A program made the position numbers and the translations under genes. Positions 42,587 through 48,682 of a stretch of 64,000 nt of DNA are shown one piece after another. The stretch lies in assembly GCF_003663845.1 (NCBI RefSeq), contig NZ_RCCA01000001.1, forward strand, positions 3,596,001 to 3,660,000, written 5' to 3'. Positions within the stretch are counted from its first letter, which is position 1. Every line of letters begins with the position of its first letter. Below the pieces are notes generated by a model. The model saw only the letters and a program-made list of their open reading frames with translations, ran no database searches and was not told the DNA's origin. This stretch comes from Chryseobacterium sp. 7. GTDB lineage: Bacteria; Bacteroidota; Bacteroidia; Flavobacteriales; Weeksellaceae.

Positions 42587-42720
42587 ATATGAAAAGAGCA
42601 ATACATAAAATTTTAAAATTCAGGAGGTCTGTATCTTTTATTTTCACAGAAGCAACGATAACGGAAACATGGATTTTGTTCGGGACATTTAAATTTTCAA
42701 CAATAAAAAATAAATATATC

Positions 42721-43440
42721 ATGACAGAATTAGTATTTAAAAATGATGGCAACATAGTAACGAACTCGCTGTTGGTTGCCGATAGGTTTGAAAAGGAACA
42801 TAAGAACGTGTTAAGAGATATTGAAAATCTCGTGGCTCAAAATTCAGCCGCCAAATCTTTCTTCCAAGAAAGCTATTATGAAAACAGAGGTAAGCAATAT
42901 CCCATGTTCATAATGAACCGGGACGGCTTTAGTTTGCTTGTTATGGGTTTCACTGGTAAAAAGGCGTTGGATTTCAAATTGGAGTATATAGAAGCTTTTA
43001 ACAAGATGGAGAAGAGTTTACTGCAGCAGTCGCAATACCATGTTCCCGGATCTTTTGCCGAAGCTTTGAAACTAGCATACCAACAGGCAGAGCAGATAGA
43101 ACTACAATCTAATGAGCTTAAGAAACAAGCTCCGAAGGTTCAGTACTTTGATAACGTATTGCAGAGCGAGAGTACGTACAATACTAACCAGATAGCAAAG
43201 GAATTGGGCATGAGTGCCGTTACATTAAACCGTATGCTATGTGACATGCACGTACAGTACAAGCAGAATGGAACTTGGCTATTATACAGCAAACATCAGA
43301 ACAAAGGATATACTAAAACCAAAACCCATTCTTACACTGATACTTCCGGGAGCACAAAAACGTCAATGCAAACCGTCTGGACGGAGAAAGGAAGATTATT
43401 TATTCATGACATAATTAAAGACAACGAGAAAATAGCTTAA
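42721..43440 (+). CDS. Rha-family phage regulator with KilAC antirepressor domain
   Basis: A 239-residue protein. Residues 1-95 fit Rha (ADRFEKEHKNVLRDIENL and FIMNRDGFSLLVMGFTGKKA). Residues 150-239 fit the KilAC domain (NTNQIAKELGMSAVTLNRML and TWLLYSK). I prefer the ATG at 42,721, where the Rha domain begins. A longer frame from 42,589 adds 44 residues that look like a broken copy of the preceding DUF2693 protein. It probably counteracts the repressor or modifies host functions during induction. Confidence 0.85.
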   Translation: MTELVFKNDGNIVTNSLLVADRFEKEHKNVLRDIENLVAQNSAAKSFFQESYYENRGKQYPMFIMNRDGFSLLVMGFTGKKALDFKLEYIEAFNKMEKSLLQQSQYHVPGSFAEALKLAYQQAEQIELQSNELKKQAPKVQYFDNVLQSESTYNTNQIAKELGMSAVTLNRMLCDMHVQYKQNGTWLLYSKHQNKGYTKTKTHSYTDTSGSTKTSMQTVWTEKGRLFIHDIIKDNEKIA

Positions 43441-43468: not shown

Positions 43469-43819
43469 ATGAGCACAACAAACATACCATCGCTAACCGC
43501 AAAAGAACAGGGAATCATTAATATTATTTCAGATAGCATATTATATAATAGGATATATGATGGCATGCGTGTTATTCTTAACGCCTTTAATCCTCTCCAG
43601 TCTGATCCGTGTGACATTGAGATCAACTACAAGGGTGTTGAAAACGCTTTAATGATTATGGATATAGAAGATGAAGACTTAAAAGAAAATCTAGAGCTTT
43701 TATATGAAAAAAATATATTCAGCAGAACTCTCGAAAACGCCTACCAGCTAGCCCTTTCCATATACTTTGAATGGCTAAAGTATATCAAGGATTTCTATAT
43801 AACTAAAAAAACAGCATAA
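43469..43819 (+). CDS. Hypothetical phage protein in the antirepressor block
   Basis: A 116-residue acidic helical protein with no family I recognise. It follows the KilAC gene after 28 nt and probably shares its transcript. Its stop codon abuts the operator-like palindrome at 43,819-43,835, which separates it from the next antirepressor. Confidence 0.65.
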   Translation: MSTTNIPSLTAKEQGIINIISDSILYNRIYDGMRVILNAFNPLQSDPCDIEINYKGVENALMIMDIEDEDLKENLELLYEKNIFSRTLENAYQLALSIYFEWLKYIKDFYITKKTA

Positions 43820-43835
43820 CAACCTTTTTGGTTGT
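43819..43835. promoter_or_regulatory. CI-type operator O1
   Basis: ACAACCTTTTTGGTTGT, a perfect 6-bp palindrome with a 5-nt T spacer. It is identical to O2 at 47,079 and covers the -33 region of the promoter at 43,832-43,861. Confidence 0.65.
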
Positions 43836-43861
43836 TTATATCAACAATGTTTGTATATTTG
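43832..43861 (+). promoter_or_regulatory. Promoter of the leader RNA and AntA antirepressor
   Basis: TTG (43,832-43,834), a 19-nt spacer and TATATTTG (43,854-43,861). The -33 element lies inside operator O1. Transcription would start near 43,867, at the foot of the structured leader. Confidence 0.65.
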
Positions 43862-43863
43862 TA

Positions 43864-43976
43864 GTGTCGACTACATACAGCTAAATAGAAATATTTAACT
43901 TCATCATATAAGCCACTTTAAGGGTTACACTTTTTCAGTATGTGTGTCGACAACCCCTTATTGTGGCTTTTTTAAT
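43864..43976 (+). ncRNA. Structured leader RNA with pseudoknot topology before the antirepressor
   Basis: Two long stems interleave. Stem A pairs 43,865-43,878 with 43,938-43,952 (14 bp, one bulge, one wobble). Stem B pairs 43,910-43,924 with 43,955-43,969 (7 plus 6 bp around a 2x2 internal loop) and is followed by TTTTTT, so it is a terminator hairpin. The second arm of A lies in the loop of B. The two stems therefore either form an H-type pseudoknot or exclude each other. It may be an attenuator for the antirepressor or an independent small RNA. Confidence 0.6.
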
Positions 43977-44001
43977 TGAAATAATTTTAAACAATACATA
44001 A

Positions 44002-44637
44002 ATGAACGAACTGATTAAAATCACGGAACACAACGGTAACAAAGCCGTTTCCGCAAGAGAATTACACAGCTACTTAGAAAGTAAGCAGGATTTTTCAAAC
44101 TGGATTAAAAACAGGATTAATAAGTATGGATTTATTGAAAATCAAGACTTTCAGCGTTTCGATAAAATTATTGAAACGGGTGGACGATTGATAGAATACG
44201 CTTTAACAATCGACTGTGCTAAAGAGTTGTCAATGGTTGAGGGCAATGAAAAAGGTAAGGAGGCTAGGAAATATTTTATTGATGTGGAAAAAGCGCACAA
44301 CAATAATTTAGCTACTTTTTATAATGATCCATTCATTCAATTAAGAATGAGTCAAATTCAGCAGCAACAGCAAATCCAGGCTTTGGAATCAAAAGTCAAT
44401 ATGATCGAGGCTAAAACGACCACCAGACCAGATTATTTTTCCGTTATGGGTTATGCAATTATGAATAAGGTTACAGTTGGGTTAAGAATGGCAGCAAGTA
44501 TAGGAAAAAAAGCTTCAAGCATATGTAAGAAGAATGGTTTTCCGACAGATGAAGTTCCTGATCCAAGGTTTGGTAGAGTCAAATTATACCCAAGTAGTGT
44601 TCTTGATAAGATATTTAGCGAAACTATATTCTCATAA
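44002..44637 (+). CDS. AntA/AntB-family antirepressor
   Basis: A 211-residue protein. Residues 1-90 are the AntA domain: KAVSARELHSYLESKQDFSNW and YALTIDCAKELSMVEGNEKG. A Gln-rich coiled coil follows near residue 115, then a C-terminal domain with SVMGYAIMNKV and a DNA-binding-like helix. Proteins of this type inactivate phage repressors and trigger lytic growth. The start lies 26 nt after the T-run of the leader, so read-through of that hairpin would control it. Confidence 0.88.
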   Translation: MNELIKITEHNGNKAVSARELHSYLESKQDFSNWIKNRINKYGFIENQDFQRFDKIIETGGRLIEYALTIDCAKELSMVEGNEKGKEARKYFIDVEKAHNNNLATFYNDPFIQLRMSQIQQQQQIQALESKVNMIEAKTTTRPDYFSVMGYAIMNKVTVGLRMAASIGKKASSICKKNGFPTDEVPDPRFGRVKLYPSSVLDKIFSETIFS

Positions 44638-44653
44638 AAATATTTATAACTTA

Positions 44654-44682
44654 CAACCCGCTCATATAGAGTGGTTTTTTTT
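44654..44682 (+). terminator. Terminator of the antirepressor gene
   Basis: AACC-C-GCTC / GAGTGGTT around a short ATATA loop (one bulge, one wobble), followed by TTTTTTTG. Confidence 0.65.
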
Positions 44683-44699
44683 GTTTTTATAAACGAAAA

Positions 44700-44720
44700 A
44701 GCCTTCGTTGAATGAAGGCT
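44700..44720 (-). terminator. Terminator of the leftward early operon
   Basis: AGCCTTC / GAAGGCT with a 7-nt loop. The A-run to its left reads as T on the minus strand, after the gene ending at 44,775. Confidence 0.7.
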
Positions 44721-44774
44721 AAAACACAATTATAGAGAAGTATAGTTATAATACTTCACTGCAAATATATAAAT

Positions 44775-45047
44775 TTAAATTTTCAGAATACATTTTTTAT
44801 ACTTCAAATACATTTTTACCATTGTCAACGGCTTACCAAGGCCGTTTTTAAGTTTGTCGCATACCTCAGGATATACCAAAAATCCTTTCTTGTTCATCTT
44901 AAAAATAGAAAGATACAACCCATCCTCCCGCAATTCAAATTCGTGGTTTTTAATCAGATCTTTCATGAATCCATCCACCTTTTCATTAGATTTTAAGGAG
45001 GCATATTTACACACCCAACTTTTAACTTTTTCAATAATACTATTCAT
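44775..45047 (-). CDS. Hypothetical protein downstream of terS
   Basis: A 90-residue basic protein with no family I recognise; it resembles neither a terminase nor a replication protein. Its start overlaps the end of terS by 8 nt, so it belongs to the same operon. It is where the large terminase gene would normally be found. Confidence 0.6.
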   Translation of the reverse strand: MNSIIEKVKSWVCKYASLKSNEKVDGFMKDLIKNHEFELREDGLYLSIFKMNKKGFLVYPEVCDKLKNGLGKPLTMVKMYLKYKKCILKI

Positions 45048-45531
45048 TCTTTTTTGCCTTTTCTGTTAATAATCGTAATGTCTCTAATTCTTCATCAGTT
45101 AGTTTTGAGTAGTCTAATGTAGAAGGCTTTTCCTCTGGCTCATTATCTTGCTTATCTCTCCAGGCTTTTGATTTTCTATTCTTCAACCAAAATATAGCGC
45201 TTGTTGGGTCCGGTGGATACACCTTTCTAATAGCAACTCTTTTAATGTCACCTTCAATAACTTTTATTTCTTCTGAGTCATGTTCGAACCCTAAGGCCCT
45301 CTGATATAGTCGGTCTGCTACATTTGCATCTGCATATTCCTTGCCTTCTTTTATGGACTCAAAAAAGTTAGGGTACTCTAACTTCCAATTGTTAATAGTC
45401 GTTTCGGTCACTTCAAAAAAATCAGCAATGTCTTTATCCGTTGAACCGAGCAGGCAAAGTTTACGAACCTGTTCATTATATTCTTCTTTATACTTTGTGG
45501 GCGCTCCGTCTTTTATTTTCACCTTCTTCAT
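45040..45531 (-). CDS. terS: Terminase small subunit
   Basis: A 163-residue protein. The family start is clear: GAPTKYKEEYNEQVRKLC, then an HTH with DIADFFEVTETTINNWK near residues 36-52, and the closing segment PPDPTSAIFWLKNRKSKAWRDK near 110-130. It recognises the packaging site on phage DNA. The C-terminal tail is acidic. It starts 5 nt after the gene with the TerL nuclease-like domain, an inverted order compared with most phages. Confidence 0.88.
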   Translation of the reverse strand: MKKVKIKDGAPTKYKEEYNEQVRKLCLLGSTDKDIADFFEVTETTINNWKLEYPNFFESIKEGKEYADANVADRLYQRALGFEHDSEEIKVIEGDIKRVAIRKVYPPDPTSAIFWLKNRKSKAWRDKQDNEPEEKPSTLDYSKLTDEELETLRLLTEKAKKNE

Positions 45532-45536
45532 CTATT

Positions 45537-46415
45537 TTAATTTTTATAACCAACATTAAAGCTTACATCCGTTACGATAAAAGGATATTGAGCCTGTAAA
45601 AAGTCTAATGCATATGTAACCACATCCTCTATGCCATCATCATAATTTTTATGAGGAGCAAAAGGGAATTGTTTTATATGTGCTATTGCGTCTTGGTATT
45701 CCGGGTTTGGATGATCTTCGAACCAATGAAGGAACTTAAAGATATGCCTTACAGACTTTATTCTCTCAAGCTTATTGTTTGATTGGTATCTTGGTTTTAA
45801 ATTATAAATTTTATATGTTAAATCGTTGTCTATGTATGATTGATTACTGTTGCTTTCTACGTAATTCTGAGAGGTTTTATAATCTTTAGTCTTTTGTATT
45901 AACTTACCCTCGTTGGCGTGCAGGCTATTCTTATTGTATACCACATCAACAGCGTATGCCTTTCCTTGCTTAATACCCAAGAATAAAGTAGCATAAGAGT
46001 CTTCTCCCGTGTCTTTAAGGTCAGTAAATGAAAATGTAGCCTCGTAATTATCGTTAGCTTCCCTAGTCATTGTCACCCCATCATAGTACATAATCTCATC
46101 CTGAGAAGCTACGGCTTTTTGCAAAAACTGAGGGTCAAACTTATTTCCAGCTTTTCGCTTTTCATTCACAAGAACGGTACTATTCATTCTTATTGGGTCG
46201 AATAATTCATTTACGTAGAATTCTTTTAGTTCTTTTGGGCGTACATCTTCCGTAAGCATAGCCGGAAGTATTACATCTTCATATTGATTTGATGCAAATT
46301 TTGGCTCTTCGTAATACTTACCATGGAACAGATAGTCTGTGTAAACAGAGGAATCGTGTACATTCCAGAATATCAATAACGCCACCAGAGCAACTAAAAA
46401 AAGATCTATTATCAT
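45537..46415 (-). CDS. TerL nuclease-domain-like protein without ATPase domain
   Basis: A 292-residue protein. Residues 125-290 fit the RNase-H-like nuclease of large terminases: SFTDLKDTGEDSYATLFLGI with the first acidic residues, AYAVDVVYNK, NYVESNSNQSYID with the central Glu, and YDDGIEDVVTYALDFL with the last Asp. The N-terminal ATPase with Walker motifs, usually about 250 residues, is absent; a hydrophobic helix (residues 3-18) and about 85 unknown residues take its place. The upstream gene ends in a clean stop 12 nt before its ATG, so this is not a simple frameshift. Confidence 0.7.
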   Translation of the reverse strand: MIIDLFLVALVALLIFWNVHDSSVYTDYLFHGKYYEEPKFASNQYEDVILPAMLTEDVRPKELKEFYVNELFDPIRMNSTVLVNEKRKAGNKFDPQFLQKAVASQDEIMYYDGVTMTREANDNYEATFSFTDLKDTGEDSYATLFLGIKQGKAYAVDVVYNKNSLHANEGKLIQKTKDYKTSQNYVESNSNQSYIDNDLTYKIYNLKPRYQSNNKLERIKSVRHIFKFLHWFEDHPNPEYQDAIAHIKQFPFAPHKNYDDGIEDVVTYALDFLQAQYPFIVTDVSFNVGYKN

Positions 46416-46427
46416 TATTTGTAGGTT

Positions 46428-46703
46428 TTATTTTCTTATCCAGTCTTTGTATTCTTCTACTGAGTACTTGTGGAATTTACTCTGATTACCTCTCCCGGAT
46501 TTACCCTTATGTGATCTTCTAAGTGGACAATCTATATTTCGAAGATCCTTCTTGATTTTTTCAACACTGATTTGCAAGTATTCCGAAATCTCTTTTATTG
46601 TAGGGTCTTGAATGTCTGACCAAAATGACCTGTTAAAATATTTCTCTGCCCAACTATCCGGAACTAATACATAGCCTTTAGGAATAATGAATTCAGTTTC
46701 CAT
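46428..46703 (-). CDS. Small HTH protein of the early operon
   Basis: A 91-residue protein. An HTH of excisionase or MerR type is visible (TIKEISEYLQISVEKIKKDL, then YSVEEYKDWI). It lies between another small regulator (1-nt gap) and the TerL-nuclease-like gene (12-nt gap). It could be a regulator or an excisionase. Confidence 0.65.
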   Translation of the reverse strand: METEFIIPKGYVLVPDSWAEKYFNRSFWSDIQDPTIKEISEYLQISVEKIKKDLRNIDCPLRRSHKGKSGRGNQSKFHKYSVEEYKDWIRK

Positions 46704-46704
46704 A

Positions 46705-46980
46705 TCAAATGCAGTCTAAGATTTGTTTGATGTACTTTTTGCCTTTTTTCGCATCCTTAATCTTATTGTCAGCGTTTACATCTGCCTTCTGCATTAATCT
46801 GATGATCGCTTTTTTATTATCGTCAGATATATTGTTACGTCTCAATCTTACATCTCTAATTGTTGATAAACTAACTGAAGTCTCAGTTGATACATCTGCC
46901 ATATCCTTTGGTGAAGTGAAGTCTCTAAGAAATTTTGAAAGATCTTCACATATAGGCTTTCCACTTTGTAATACTTCCAT
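46705..46980 (-). CDS. Small HTH-like protein, first gene of the early operon
   Basis: A 91-residue protein with an Xre-like helical core (DMADVSTETSVSLSTIRDVR) and a basic C-terminus. It is the first gene after the repressor-controlled promoter at 47,072-47,102, with a leader of about 85 nt. The function is not known; Cro-like or early regulator is possible. Confidence 0.65.
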   Translation of the reverse strand: MEVLQSGKPICEDLSKFLRDFTSPKDMADVSTETSVSLSTIRDVRLRRNNISDDNKKAIIRLMQKADVNADNKIKDAKKGKKYIKQILDCI

Positions 46981-47071
46981 ACATTTTTTGTTTTAAATAA
47001 ATTATCGTGTTTTTACTATTTTTTTAAACAACATCTTTTAGCTAACTTTGCATCGTGCTGTAATAATGATA

Positions 47072-47102
47072 CAAATATACAACCTTTTTGGTTGTTTACA
47101 AA
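47072..47102 (-). promoter_or_regulatory. Early leftward phage promoter
   Basis: On the minus strand TTTG (47,102-47,099), a 19-nt spacer and TATATTTG (47,079-47,072). Operator O2 fills the spacer, so a bound repressor would block it. Confidence 0.7.
47079..47095. promoter_or_regulatory. CI-type operator O2
   Basis: ACAACCTTTTTGGTTGT, identical over all 17 positions to O1 at 43,819. It lies between the -7 and -33 elements of the early promoter. Confidence 0.7.
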
Positions 47103-47110
47103 TTTAAAAC

Positions 47111-47127
47111 ACAACTTTTACGGTTGT
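47111..47127. promoter_or_regulatory. CI-type operator O3 (imperfect)
   Basis: ACAACTTTTACGGTTGT, differing from O2 in 3 of 17 positions. Its centre is 32 bp from that of O2, three helical turns, which favours cooperative binding. Confidence 0.6.
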
Positions 47128-47168
47128 TTTAATTAACTTTCTGAAAACCAGATAGAAAAATTTTATTC

Positions 47169-47612
47169 ATGACATCAGAAGAATTTGACAATAAGTGTGA
47201 TTTTTACTTAGCAGAAGTCTACAAAAGCACATCAGGACTATATTCACTACCGAGAATAGTGGAAAATAATAAAGAGATTCAAGTAATGAAATACTTGGTC
47301 CAACAGAATTTAGTCATAGATGTAAACATGGAATTTTATAGGATTACACAGTTTGGTAGACAAGTTTATGAAATTGGAGGTTGGCTTAAATATTTACAAT
47401 TTCAAAAGGAAGAAACCGAAGAGAAAAAGAATAAAGAAAAAAAAGAATATGAAAAATTAAAGCACGAATTAGAATTAGTTCAGAAAACTTTAGAGGACTA
47501 TGATAAAACAAAAAAAGATGTAAAAGCATCCTTAAAAGTATCTATTTGGTCTGTTATCATCGCAGCATTAGCGCTATTAGGCTTAATAATACAGATAATC
47601 CTGACAGTATAA
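47169..47612 (+). CDS. Coiled-coil protein with C-terminal membrane anchor
   Basis: A 147-residue protein. Residues 1-70 look like a small winged helix (IVENNKEIQVMKYLVQQNLV, then FYRITQFGRQVYEIGG). Residues 75-120 form a charged coiled coil, and residues 125-146 a membrane helix. Similar tail-anchored proteins occur in prophages; the function is unknown. Its 3' end overlaps the convergent gene at 47,557 by 56 nt. It starts 42 nt after operator O3 and may be under the repressor as well. Confidence 0.7.
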   Translation: MTSEEFDNKCDFYLAEVYKSTSGLYSLPRIVENNKEIQVMKYLVQQNLVIDVNMEFYRITQFGRQVYEIGGWLKYLQFQKEETEEKKNKEKKEYEKLKHELELVQKTLEDYDKTKKDVKASLKVSIWSVIIAALALLGLIIQIILTV

Positions 47613-47913
47613 TAGAAAGAATGATCAAACTGTGACAAAAAACATTCTCTTCTTTTAGATCCAGCTTTGAAAGGCGCAGATCATGTTTTAAAATGCATTG
47701 ACTTTTCTCTAATGATTCAATACGCTCTTCAATAATGGTTAATCTATTAGTATATGCTTGTTTATCTTTTTCGTAAAAATATTTAGAATCAAAGATTTCG
47801 GTTTTATTAAATAAAATCTCTTTCCAAAGACTTTCTAATTGTGTTTTACAAAATAAAGATGAGCAAAATGATTTATATTTTTTGAACTTCTTTTTCTTAA
47901 TTTTTTCATTCAT
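47557..47913 (-). CDS. Coiled-coil protein with C-terminal membrane anchor, convergent
   Basis: A 118-residue protein. A very basic start (NEKIKKKKFKKYK) is followed by a helical part with a coiled coil and a C-terminal membrane helix near residues 95-116. Its end overlaps the end of the gene at 47,169 on the opposite strand; both encode membrane helices in the overlap. The promoter at 47,932-47,961 with operator O4 lies upstream, so the phage repressor probably controls it. It could be an exclusion or lysogeny protein. Confidence 0.6.
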   Translation of the reverse strand: MNEKIKKKKFKKYKSFCSSLFCKTQLESLWKEILFNKTEIFDSKYFYEKDKQAYTNRLTIIEERIESLEKSQCILKHDLRLSKLDLKEENVFCHSLIILSIILSGLSVLLSLIALMLR

Positions 47914-47931
47914 AACAAATTAATTTTAAAG

Positions 47932-47961
47932 CAAATATATGAAAGAAAAAACAAACAACAA
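47932..47961 (-). promoter_or_regulatory. Promoter of the 47,557-47,913 gene
   Basis: On the minus strand TTG (47,961-47,959), a 19-nt spacer and TATATTTG (47,939-47,932). It overlaps the start of the repressor gene and operator O4. Confidence 0.55.
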
Positions 47962-48682
47962 CCAAAAAGGTAGTTACCTAAGAAGGTTTTTAGAATTAAA
48001 TTCAATTACACCTAAAATGGTTCAAGATGCTTTAGGCGTTTCTCAACAATATGTTTCAGCCATAATTAATGGATCTAAAAGCATAGGAAAAGGTACAGCT
48101 AAAAAATTAAATGAATTATACGGTGCTGATGAATATAAATTATTATTTGGAGAAGGATCAATGCTTAACGAGCCTGAAAAAAAAGACAATATAAAATTAG
48201 TATCTCCTGATAATATAGATAAACTACCAAGCAATAGAAAAACATTTGATACGCCAATTGAAATTCAAACTATACCTGTATATGATTCAACTGCTACACT
48301 GGGGCTTGTAGAAGTTTTTAATGGTTCTGAAACGGGAAATATATTAAGTTATATTAGTATTCCCAACCTACCAAAAAGTGACGGTGCTATTTTTATGACA
48401 GGAGATTCAATGTATCCTTTGCTAAAGTCAGGAGATATTGTTGCTTTAAAGATAATTAATAGGCTTGACATTATTTATGGTGAAATGTATTATGTTGAAT
48501 ATTTAGGAGAAGATGAATATAGTGAGTTTAAAGTAATAAAATATGTAAAGAAATCTGAATTAGGAAAAGACTATATTCAATTAGCTTCATATAATCAGCA
48601 TCATGAACCTAAAGACATTTTGCTTTCTAAAATAAAAACAATTGCAATCGTAAACGCTTCAGTAAGATATAATAGACTTTGA
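47939..48682 (+). CDS. CI-like phage repressor (Xre plus S24 domain)
   Basis: A 247-residue repressor. Residues 12-70 form an Xre HTH (MVQDALGVSQQYVSAIINGSK). Residues 120-245 form the LexA/CI S24 domain with the Ser nucleophile in MTGDSMYPLLKSGDIVAL near residue 160 and the Lys in EFKVIKYVKK near 202, so RecA-stimulated self-cleavage is possible. I see no obvious Ala-Gly cleavage site. It probably binds the four ACAACC-N5-GGTTGT sites and keeps the prophage silent. Confidence 0.9.
   Translation: MKEKTNNNQKGSYLRRFLELNSITPKMVQDALGVSQQYVSAIINGSKSIGKGTAKKLNELYGADEYKLLFGEGSMLNEPEKKDNIKLVSPDNIDKLPSNRKTFDTPIEIQTIPVYDSTATLGLVEVFNGSETGNILSYISIPNLPKSDGAIFMTGDSMYPLLKSGDIVALKIINRLDIIYGEMYYVEYLGEDEYSEFKVIKYVKKSELGKDYIQLASYNQHHEPKDILLSKIKTIAIVNASVRYNRL
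47958..47974. promoter_or_regulatory. CI-type operator O4 (imperfect)
   Basis: ACAACCAAAAAGGTAGT, an imperfect palindrome of the same type within codons 7-12 of the repressor gene. It covers the -33 element of the leftward promoter at 47,932. Confidence 0.5.

Follow-up and report, generated by a model that had tools for sequence, protein, structure and literature searches.

Here, we describe a putative lysogeny switch in a prophage of Chryseobacterium sp. 7, in which four palindromes of the form ACAACC-N5-GGTTGT would act as operators of one CI-like repressor and wire the lysogeny decision, including the silencing of the prophage's own antirepressor; we give this reading a probability of roughly 80%. 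The window referred to throughout is the whole stretch of DNA analysed, 64,000 nucleotides of contig NZ_RCCA01000001.1 (positions 3,596,001 to 3,660,000 of the forward strand), and coordinates are those of the window (Table 1). One palindrome overlaps the promoter of the antirepressor leader (P_ant), two neighbouring ones (O1 and O2) lie at the early leftward promoter (P_early), and the last (O3) lies within the start of the repressor gene. The same arrangement of O1, O2 and O3 accompanies the helix-turn-helix (HTH) domain of this repressor in other prophages.

Four near-perfect palindromes lie at three promoters

The original prediction, made from the letters of the window, placed perfect palindromes at 43,819 and 47,079 and imperfect ones at 47,111 and 47,958, and a rescan returned all four with the same coordinates and mismatches. 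The two perfect sites are identical at all 17 bases (ACAACCTTTTTGGTTGT). At up to one mismatch the window holds these four matches and no others, against 0.02 expected by chance, and none of 100 shuffled sequences reached four. Scanning the whole 5.09-Mb genome at the same threshold yielded eight places, four in this prophage and four scattered single sites overlapping open reading frames (ORFs), a handful of outside copies rather than many. Only near-perfect palindromes are meaningful, because a scan of the window at three mismatches gave 22 sites against 18.4 expected and hence no enrichment.

The sites could instead belong to a host regulator, for example the Bacteroidetes SOS repressor. 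Non-canonical SOS repressors of the S24 type, with N5-spaced palindromes, are known from the host phylum (PMC8565304), and the genome itself encodes a second S24 protein (L023; L and G labels denote loci and genomes). A host SOS regulon, however, would be spread over repair genes, whereas half of the eight genome places fall in this prophage, and neither of the published SOS motifs, CTAA-N5-TTAG and GGA-N5-TCC (PMC8565304), is found on the four sites, which makes this ownership highly improbable.

A sigma-70 promoter scan was uninformative for this phylum. TTG is the -33 element of flavobacterial promoters. Their -7 box is TAnnTTTG, at -12 to -5 (PMC9723704). The window contains three exact copies of TTG-N19-TATATTTG (0.15 expected; 0 of 100 shuffles reach three), each with one of the palindromes, which fills the spacer of P_early and supplies with one arm the -33 TTG of both P_ant and the leftward promoter at 47932-47961. 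The overlaps foreseen with the antirepressor leader promoter and with the early promoter, including a second site 32 bp away, were thus borne out. The site at 47,958 had been assigned to a promoter next to the repressor gene; it does supply the -33 element there, but it is also intragenic, and that promoter drives the ORF at 47557-47913, not the repressor. It is scarcely credible that the inverted repeats are weak terminators or RNA hairpins rather than operators: two of the four score as terminator-like on the minus strand, but the sites lie within promoters and a coding sequence, and the O1/O2 spacing is held at 31-32 bp in six prophages.

Operator sequence follows the HTH domain of the repressor

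Both HTH_3 and Peptidase_S24 of the predicted repressor exceed the Pfam cut-off, and the two halves can be followed separately among its relatives. The HTH clade comprises the window, L042, L043, L047, L048 and L081, with 53-63% identity to the window's HTH for four of the latter five and 48% between L048 and L043 (L162 was counted once with L042, and the near-identical L060 and L079 with L043). All six members have an O1/O2 pair 31-32 bp apart and an intragenic O3, and O1 adjoins the -7 box CAAATATA of P_early. Four of the five relatives are short proteins without S24 sequence. Nine loci that share the S24 half and have other N-termini (L033-L041, with L035 and L036 yielding one and the same match) hold no site at up to one mismatch. 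We assign the sites to this repressor because operators of this type accompany its HTH domain and are absent where only the S24 domain is shared, and the identification of the four palindromes as operators of the putative HTH-S24 repressor, as originally proposed, is well supported by this comparison.

Searches that started from DNA led to the same domain. L047, L048 and L060 were recovered by the 17-base search alone, and a DNA-only scan of viral contigs for two sites 10-18 bases apart returned eight contigs (counted as returned), six of which encode this HTH, one being this prophage; in the other two, the pair lies within a very long ORF in one, and the second has no such HTH in the stretch examined. 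None of 24 viral contigs with a lone 17-mer encodes this HTH in the stretch examined.

An alternative owner is the cro-like protein encoded at 46705-46980, in which case the S24 repressor would either share these sites or bind elsewhere. The gene is the first under P_early, the expected place of Cro, and in lambda-type switches Cro acts on operators that CI also uses; the gene's tblastn relatives sit divergent to the repressor in other prophages. Operator sequence, however, tracks the repressor HTH and not this protein: in L033 and L036 the cro-like protein is 75-80% identical over 64 residues, yet the O1/O2 sequence is another one, beside a different repressor HTH. We consider it quite unlikely that the cro-like protein, rather than the repressor, is the owner.

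The link between HTH and operator appears to reach beyond the clade. Directly beside the P_early -7 box, 14 of 18 loci carry 17 bases that recur in similar form 30-32 bp away, with a sequence that varies by HTH type: ATAACY-N5-RGTTAT-like in L075, L076 and L077, a TAGAAAACTTTCTA palindrome in L037, and ATACTACATTATGTAGTAT in L034. The score left out L035 (same match as L036), L060, L074 and L079 (copies of L043), L080 (of L047) and L015 (of L042), as well as L017, L044 and L019-L025 as distant or partial. The layout is as expected if immunity modules exchange DNA-binding domain and operators together. This wider reading is weakened because a scan for ATAACY-N5-RGTTAT pairs returned 29 contigs, only two of which have an HTH relative in the stretch examined. 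By eye, a TA-rich block that closes with TTGATTTTCA or a similar sequence is often present after O2 in the 16 loci displayed (L038 and L039 are absent from the display, and in both one site counted as O2 and intragenic site alike); it is a weak candidate for the rightward promoter region.

Within the S24 part of the repressor, Ser157 and Lys201 stand in invariant alignment columns. By comparison with LexA, we take Leu121-Gly122 (48299-48304) to be the likely cleavage position, which is Leu-Gly also in L033, L034 and L036 and Ala-Gly in five others (L037-L041); the Leu-Gly version may resist RecA-stimulated cleavage. An AlphaFold model from a 4-row alignment had block means of the predicted local distance difference test (pLDDT) of 75-89 over residues 11-70, while its S24 part scored below 50 and was not used. 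A PDB sequence search with the repressor gave weak HTH matches only. The short repressors without S24 in L042, L047 and L081 have the stretch IKNKPHDEQM in common in their C-terminal half, and a regulator in L126 with another HTH carries the variant IKNLPHDKQM.

O3 and two orphan ORFs in the immunity region

O3 starts 19 bases past the A of the repressor ATG, and 16-19 bases into the gene across the six clade members. Its older role was probably to limit the repressor's own transcription, because it is kept in all six although five of them (L042, L043, L047, L048 and L081) have no CAAATATA promoter at O3. From O2 to O3, start to start, the window measures 847 bp, compared to 179-199 bp in the relatives, and two orphan ORFs intervene, one of which (47557-47913) is read from the leftward promoter that uses O3 as its -33 region. 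We read the orphan ORFs as an insertion that would have placed its promoter under a pre-existing O3. For the ORF at 47169-47612, we found no relatives in phages, and none in viral contigs except this prophage; for that at 47557-47913, none in phages nor in 172 other genomes of the genus. The two are convergent (47169-47913), each with a terminal hydrophobic segment, and are possible exclusion genes.

The antirepressor promoter and a conserved leader RNA

P_ant carries a repressor-type operator at 43819-43835, a feature of P1-like antirepressor control, and this overlap suggests that the repressor represses the antirepressor. The gene that follows belongs to the AntA family; used as a query, it matched this genome and 21 others among 320. 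It is conceivable, albeit unlikely, that only O1, O2 and O3 work and that the P_ant site is a recent acquisition devoid of a regulatory role. The site was found at P_ant in one prophage only, but it matches O1 at all 17 bases and lies over the -33 element with N19 spacing like that of the other two promoters, and by chance the whole window should hold 0.02 sites of this quality. Upstream of AntA, at 42589-43440, there is a second antirepressor-type gene (Rha + KilAC), without this operator type. In other loci (L131, L157, L126 and L154), a AACAAAATTGTT-like palindrome is found upstream of the antirepressor promoter; in L131 it directly follows the integrase gene and is thus possibly the attachment site.

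The P_ant transcript would start at about 43866, and its first 14 bases (43866-43879) could pair with the loop of a terminator-like hairpin at 43910-43969. This complementarity of 5' end and loop occurs in six of six prophages (window, G144, L131, G150, G175 and G145); when the 5' 16-mer was shuffled 500 times, 0 to 3 of the shuffles were as stable. In G145 (L126 3972-4031), the loop has the opposite orientation to that of the other copies, and a difference in the 5' strand preserves part of the pairing, which is weaker there. With strong scores, the leader was found in 5 of 320 genomes by strict pattern and covariance-model searches; ten further genomes were reported with E-values no better than 0.0017. 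The leader precedes AntA (window, G144), P63C (L131, and G150 by protein identity to that of L131), Rha (G145) and an unassigned protein (G175), and an extra copy in L129 has no such gene after it on its strand. Covariation among four sequences amounted to one double change, matched by 124 of 500 shuffles and not significant. In Rfam, cmscan up to E = 5 returned only InvR, whose 20 bits fall well short of its gathering score of 60; no known RNA family, such as an antisense RNA like c4 of P1, thus credibly matched the leader. The predicted leader RNA is a conserved element in Chryseobacterium-type prophages, for which attenuation or action as a small RNA are the obvious options. Tentatively, and at somewhat less than even odds, we propose that the antirepressor is held under two locks, the repressor operator and a leader whose 5' end pairs with its own hairpin loop, and that the leader is a mobile cis-element. 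It stands before no fewer than four dissimilar types of gene, of which AntA, Rha and P63C are phage regulatory families and the fourth is unassigned.

Table 1. Features of the candidate switch region (window coordinates) and copies of the leader in other loci (coordinates of the locus)
Feature	Position	Strand	Remarks
P_ant operator, perfect	43819-43835	+	right arm is the -33 TTG of P_ant
P_ant, TTG-N19-TATATTTG	43832-43861	+	inferred start ~43866
Antirepressor leader RNA	43866-43978	+	terminator-like hairpin, loop complementary to the first 14 bases
AntA-domain antirepressor, 211 aa	44002-44637	+	Pfam AntA 4.2e-25; PHROG anti-repressor 2.5e-38
Cro-like position gene, 91 aa	46705-46980	-	first of the leftward early operon; no Pfam/PHROG match; tblastn relatives
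P_early, TTG-N19-TATATTTG	47072-47101	-	pattern scan
O1, perfect	47079-47095		in P_early spacer, one base common with -7 box
O2, one mismatch	47111-47127		32 bp from O1, upstream of P_early, over presumed rightward promoter
Possible rightward (repressor-side) -7 box TAACTTTC	47134-47141	+	weak, comparison only
Orphan ORF, 147 aa	47169-47612	+	C-terminal hydrophobic segment; this prophage alone has it between O2 and repressor
Orphan ORF, 118 aa	47557-47913	-	C-terminal hydrophobic segment; driven by promoter 47961-47932
Leftward promoter, TTG-N19-TATATTTG	47932-47961	-	-7 box overlaps repressor start codon
Repressor, HTH_3 + Peptidase_S24, 247 aa	47939-48682	+	Pfam HTH_3 1.8e-8, Peptidase_S24 3.9e-9; PHROG transcriptional repressor 5.1e-20
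O3, one mismatch	47958-47974		within repressor codons 7-12; at +16 to +19 in six of six clade members
Leader copies	L132 1452-1570; L131 12796-12909; L134 1491-1608		first 14-16 bases complementary to loop
Leader copies	L138 1501-1619; L126 3963-4079		first 14-16 bases complementary to loop

A proposed model of the switch

In the lysogen, a repressor dimer would occupy O1 inside P_early as well as O2 on the presumed rightward promoter, which would shut off early transcription. Covering the -33 element of P_ant would keep AntA silent, and covering that of the promoter of 47557-47913 would keep this orphan ORF off. When abundant, the repressor at O3 would limit its own transcription, either as a roadblock or through a loop to O1/O2. 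Should repressor activity fall, P_ant would open, and if AntA inactivates the repressor, the fall would reinforce itself and produce a sharp switch to lysis.

Several observations weigh against this scheme. (i) More distant HTH relatives (L075-L078, 34-48% identity) are without the motif at up to one mismatch. (ii) The O2 E-values of the 18-locus comparison are optimistic because the offsets were chosen to maximise the joint O1/O2 score, O1 and O2 being picked over few offsets. (iii) The repressor's own promoter in this prophage has only a weak candidate. (iv) A search of nine records of relatives, seven of them virus records that may be fragments, found no AntA, and its action on this repressor is presumed from its family. 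(v) Among the matches listed, four prophages that bear this leader before other genes or in another arrangement (G145, L131, G175 and G150) do not have their own operator at P_ant, with a best agreement of 11-12 of 17 bases compared to 17 of 17 here (G144, for which BLAST found no repressor nearby, is excluded from this comparison). The claim that the repressor silences its own antirepressor hence stands in part: the operator overlaps P_ant as described, but only in this prophage and not in the four others with the same leader. Because of these four, repressor control of the antirepressor looks like wiring of this prophage.

Relation to known repressor systems

The comparison offers a reading rule, whereby 17 bases adjoining the P_early box CAAATATA are likely an operator if they have a partner at a distance of 30-32 bp, as in the 14 of 18 loci. 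HTH sequence appears to set operator sequence, in which case immunity groups of Chryseobacterium-type prophages would be predictable from sequence. The series of HTH domains and operators is also natural material on S24 motif change, a question raised for the Bacteroidetes SOS repressors (PMC8565304). In the open-access literature, we found no prophage repressor with mapped operators in Flavobacteriia.

The circuit itself is a classical CI-type repressor switch. At lambda OR, neighbouring operators lie between the early and repressor-side promoters, and the same holds here; unlike the three sites of lambda, there are two, 31-32 bp apart, at Bacteroidota promoters (TAnnTTTG), with a further site inside the repressor gene. 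A precedent in circuit layout, as distinct from homology, is P1, in which the antirepressor coi is expressed from a promoter under C1 repression and a second antirepressor, Ant1/2, is under the c4 RNA; both systems have one repressor and dispersed operators, one of them at the promoter of the repressor's own antirepressor, but P1 operators are 22 asymmetric 17-mers instead of four palindromes (PMC8546580). TP901-1 likewise has divergent promoters and a CI with three operators (OR, OL and OD), but it is a lactococcal phage with MOR as antirepressor, whereas the antirepressor here is an AntA gene of its own, 3 kb distant and with an operator to itself (PMC7250872). O3 recalls the auxiliary operator O3 of LacI, through which a repressor limits its own transcription by roadblock, though as an analogy only (PMC3711431). 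The non-canonical LexA of Bacteroidetes shares HTH_3 + S24 and N5-spaced palindromes, and capture of a phage repressor has been discussed as an origin; it differs in serving a host regulon with other half-sites and two conserved motif groups (PMC8565304). What goes beyond the classical switch is the comparative link between HTH and operator, together with the leader RNA.

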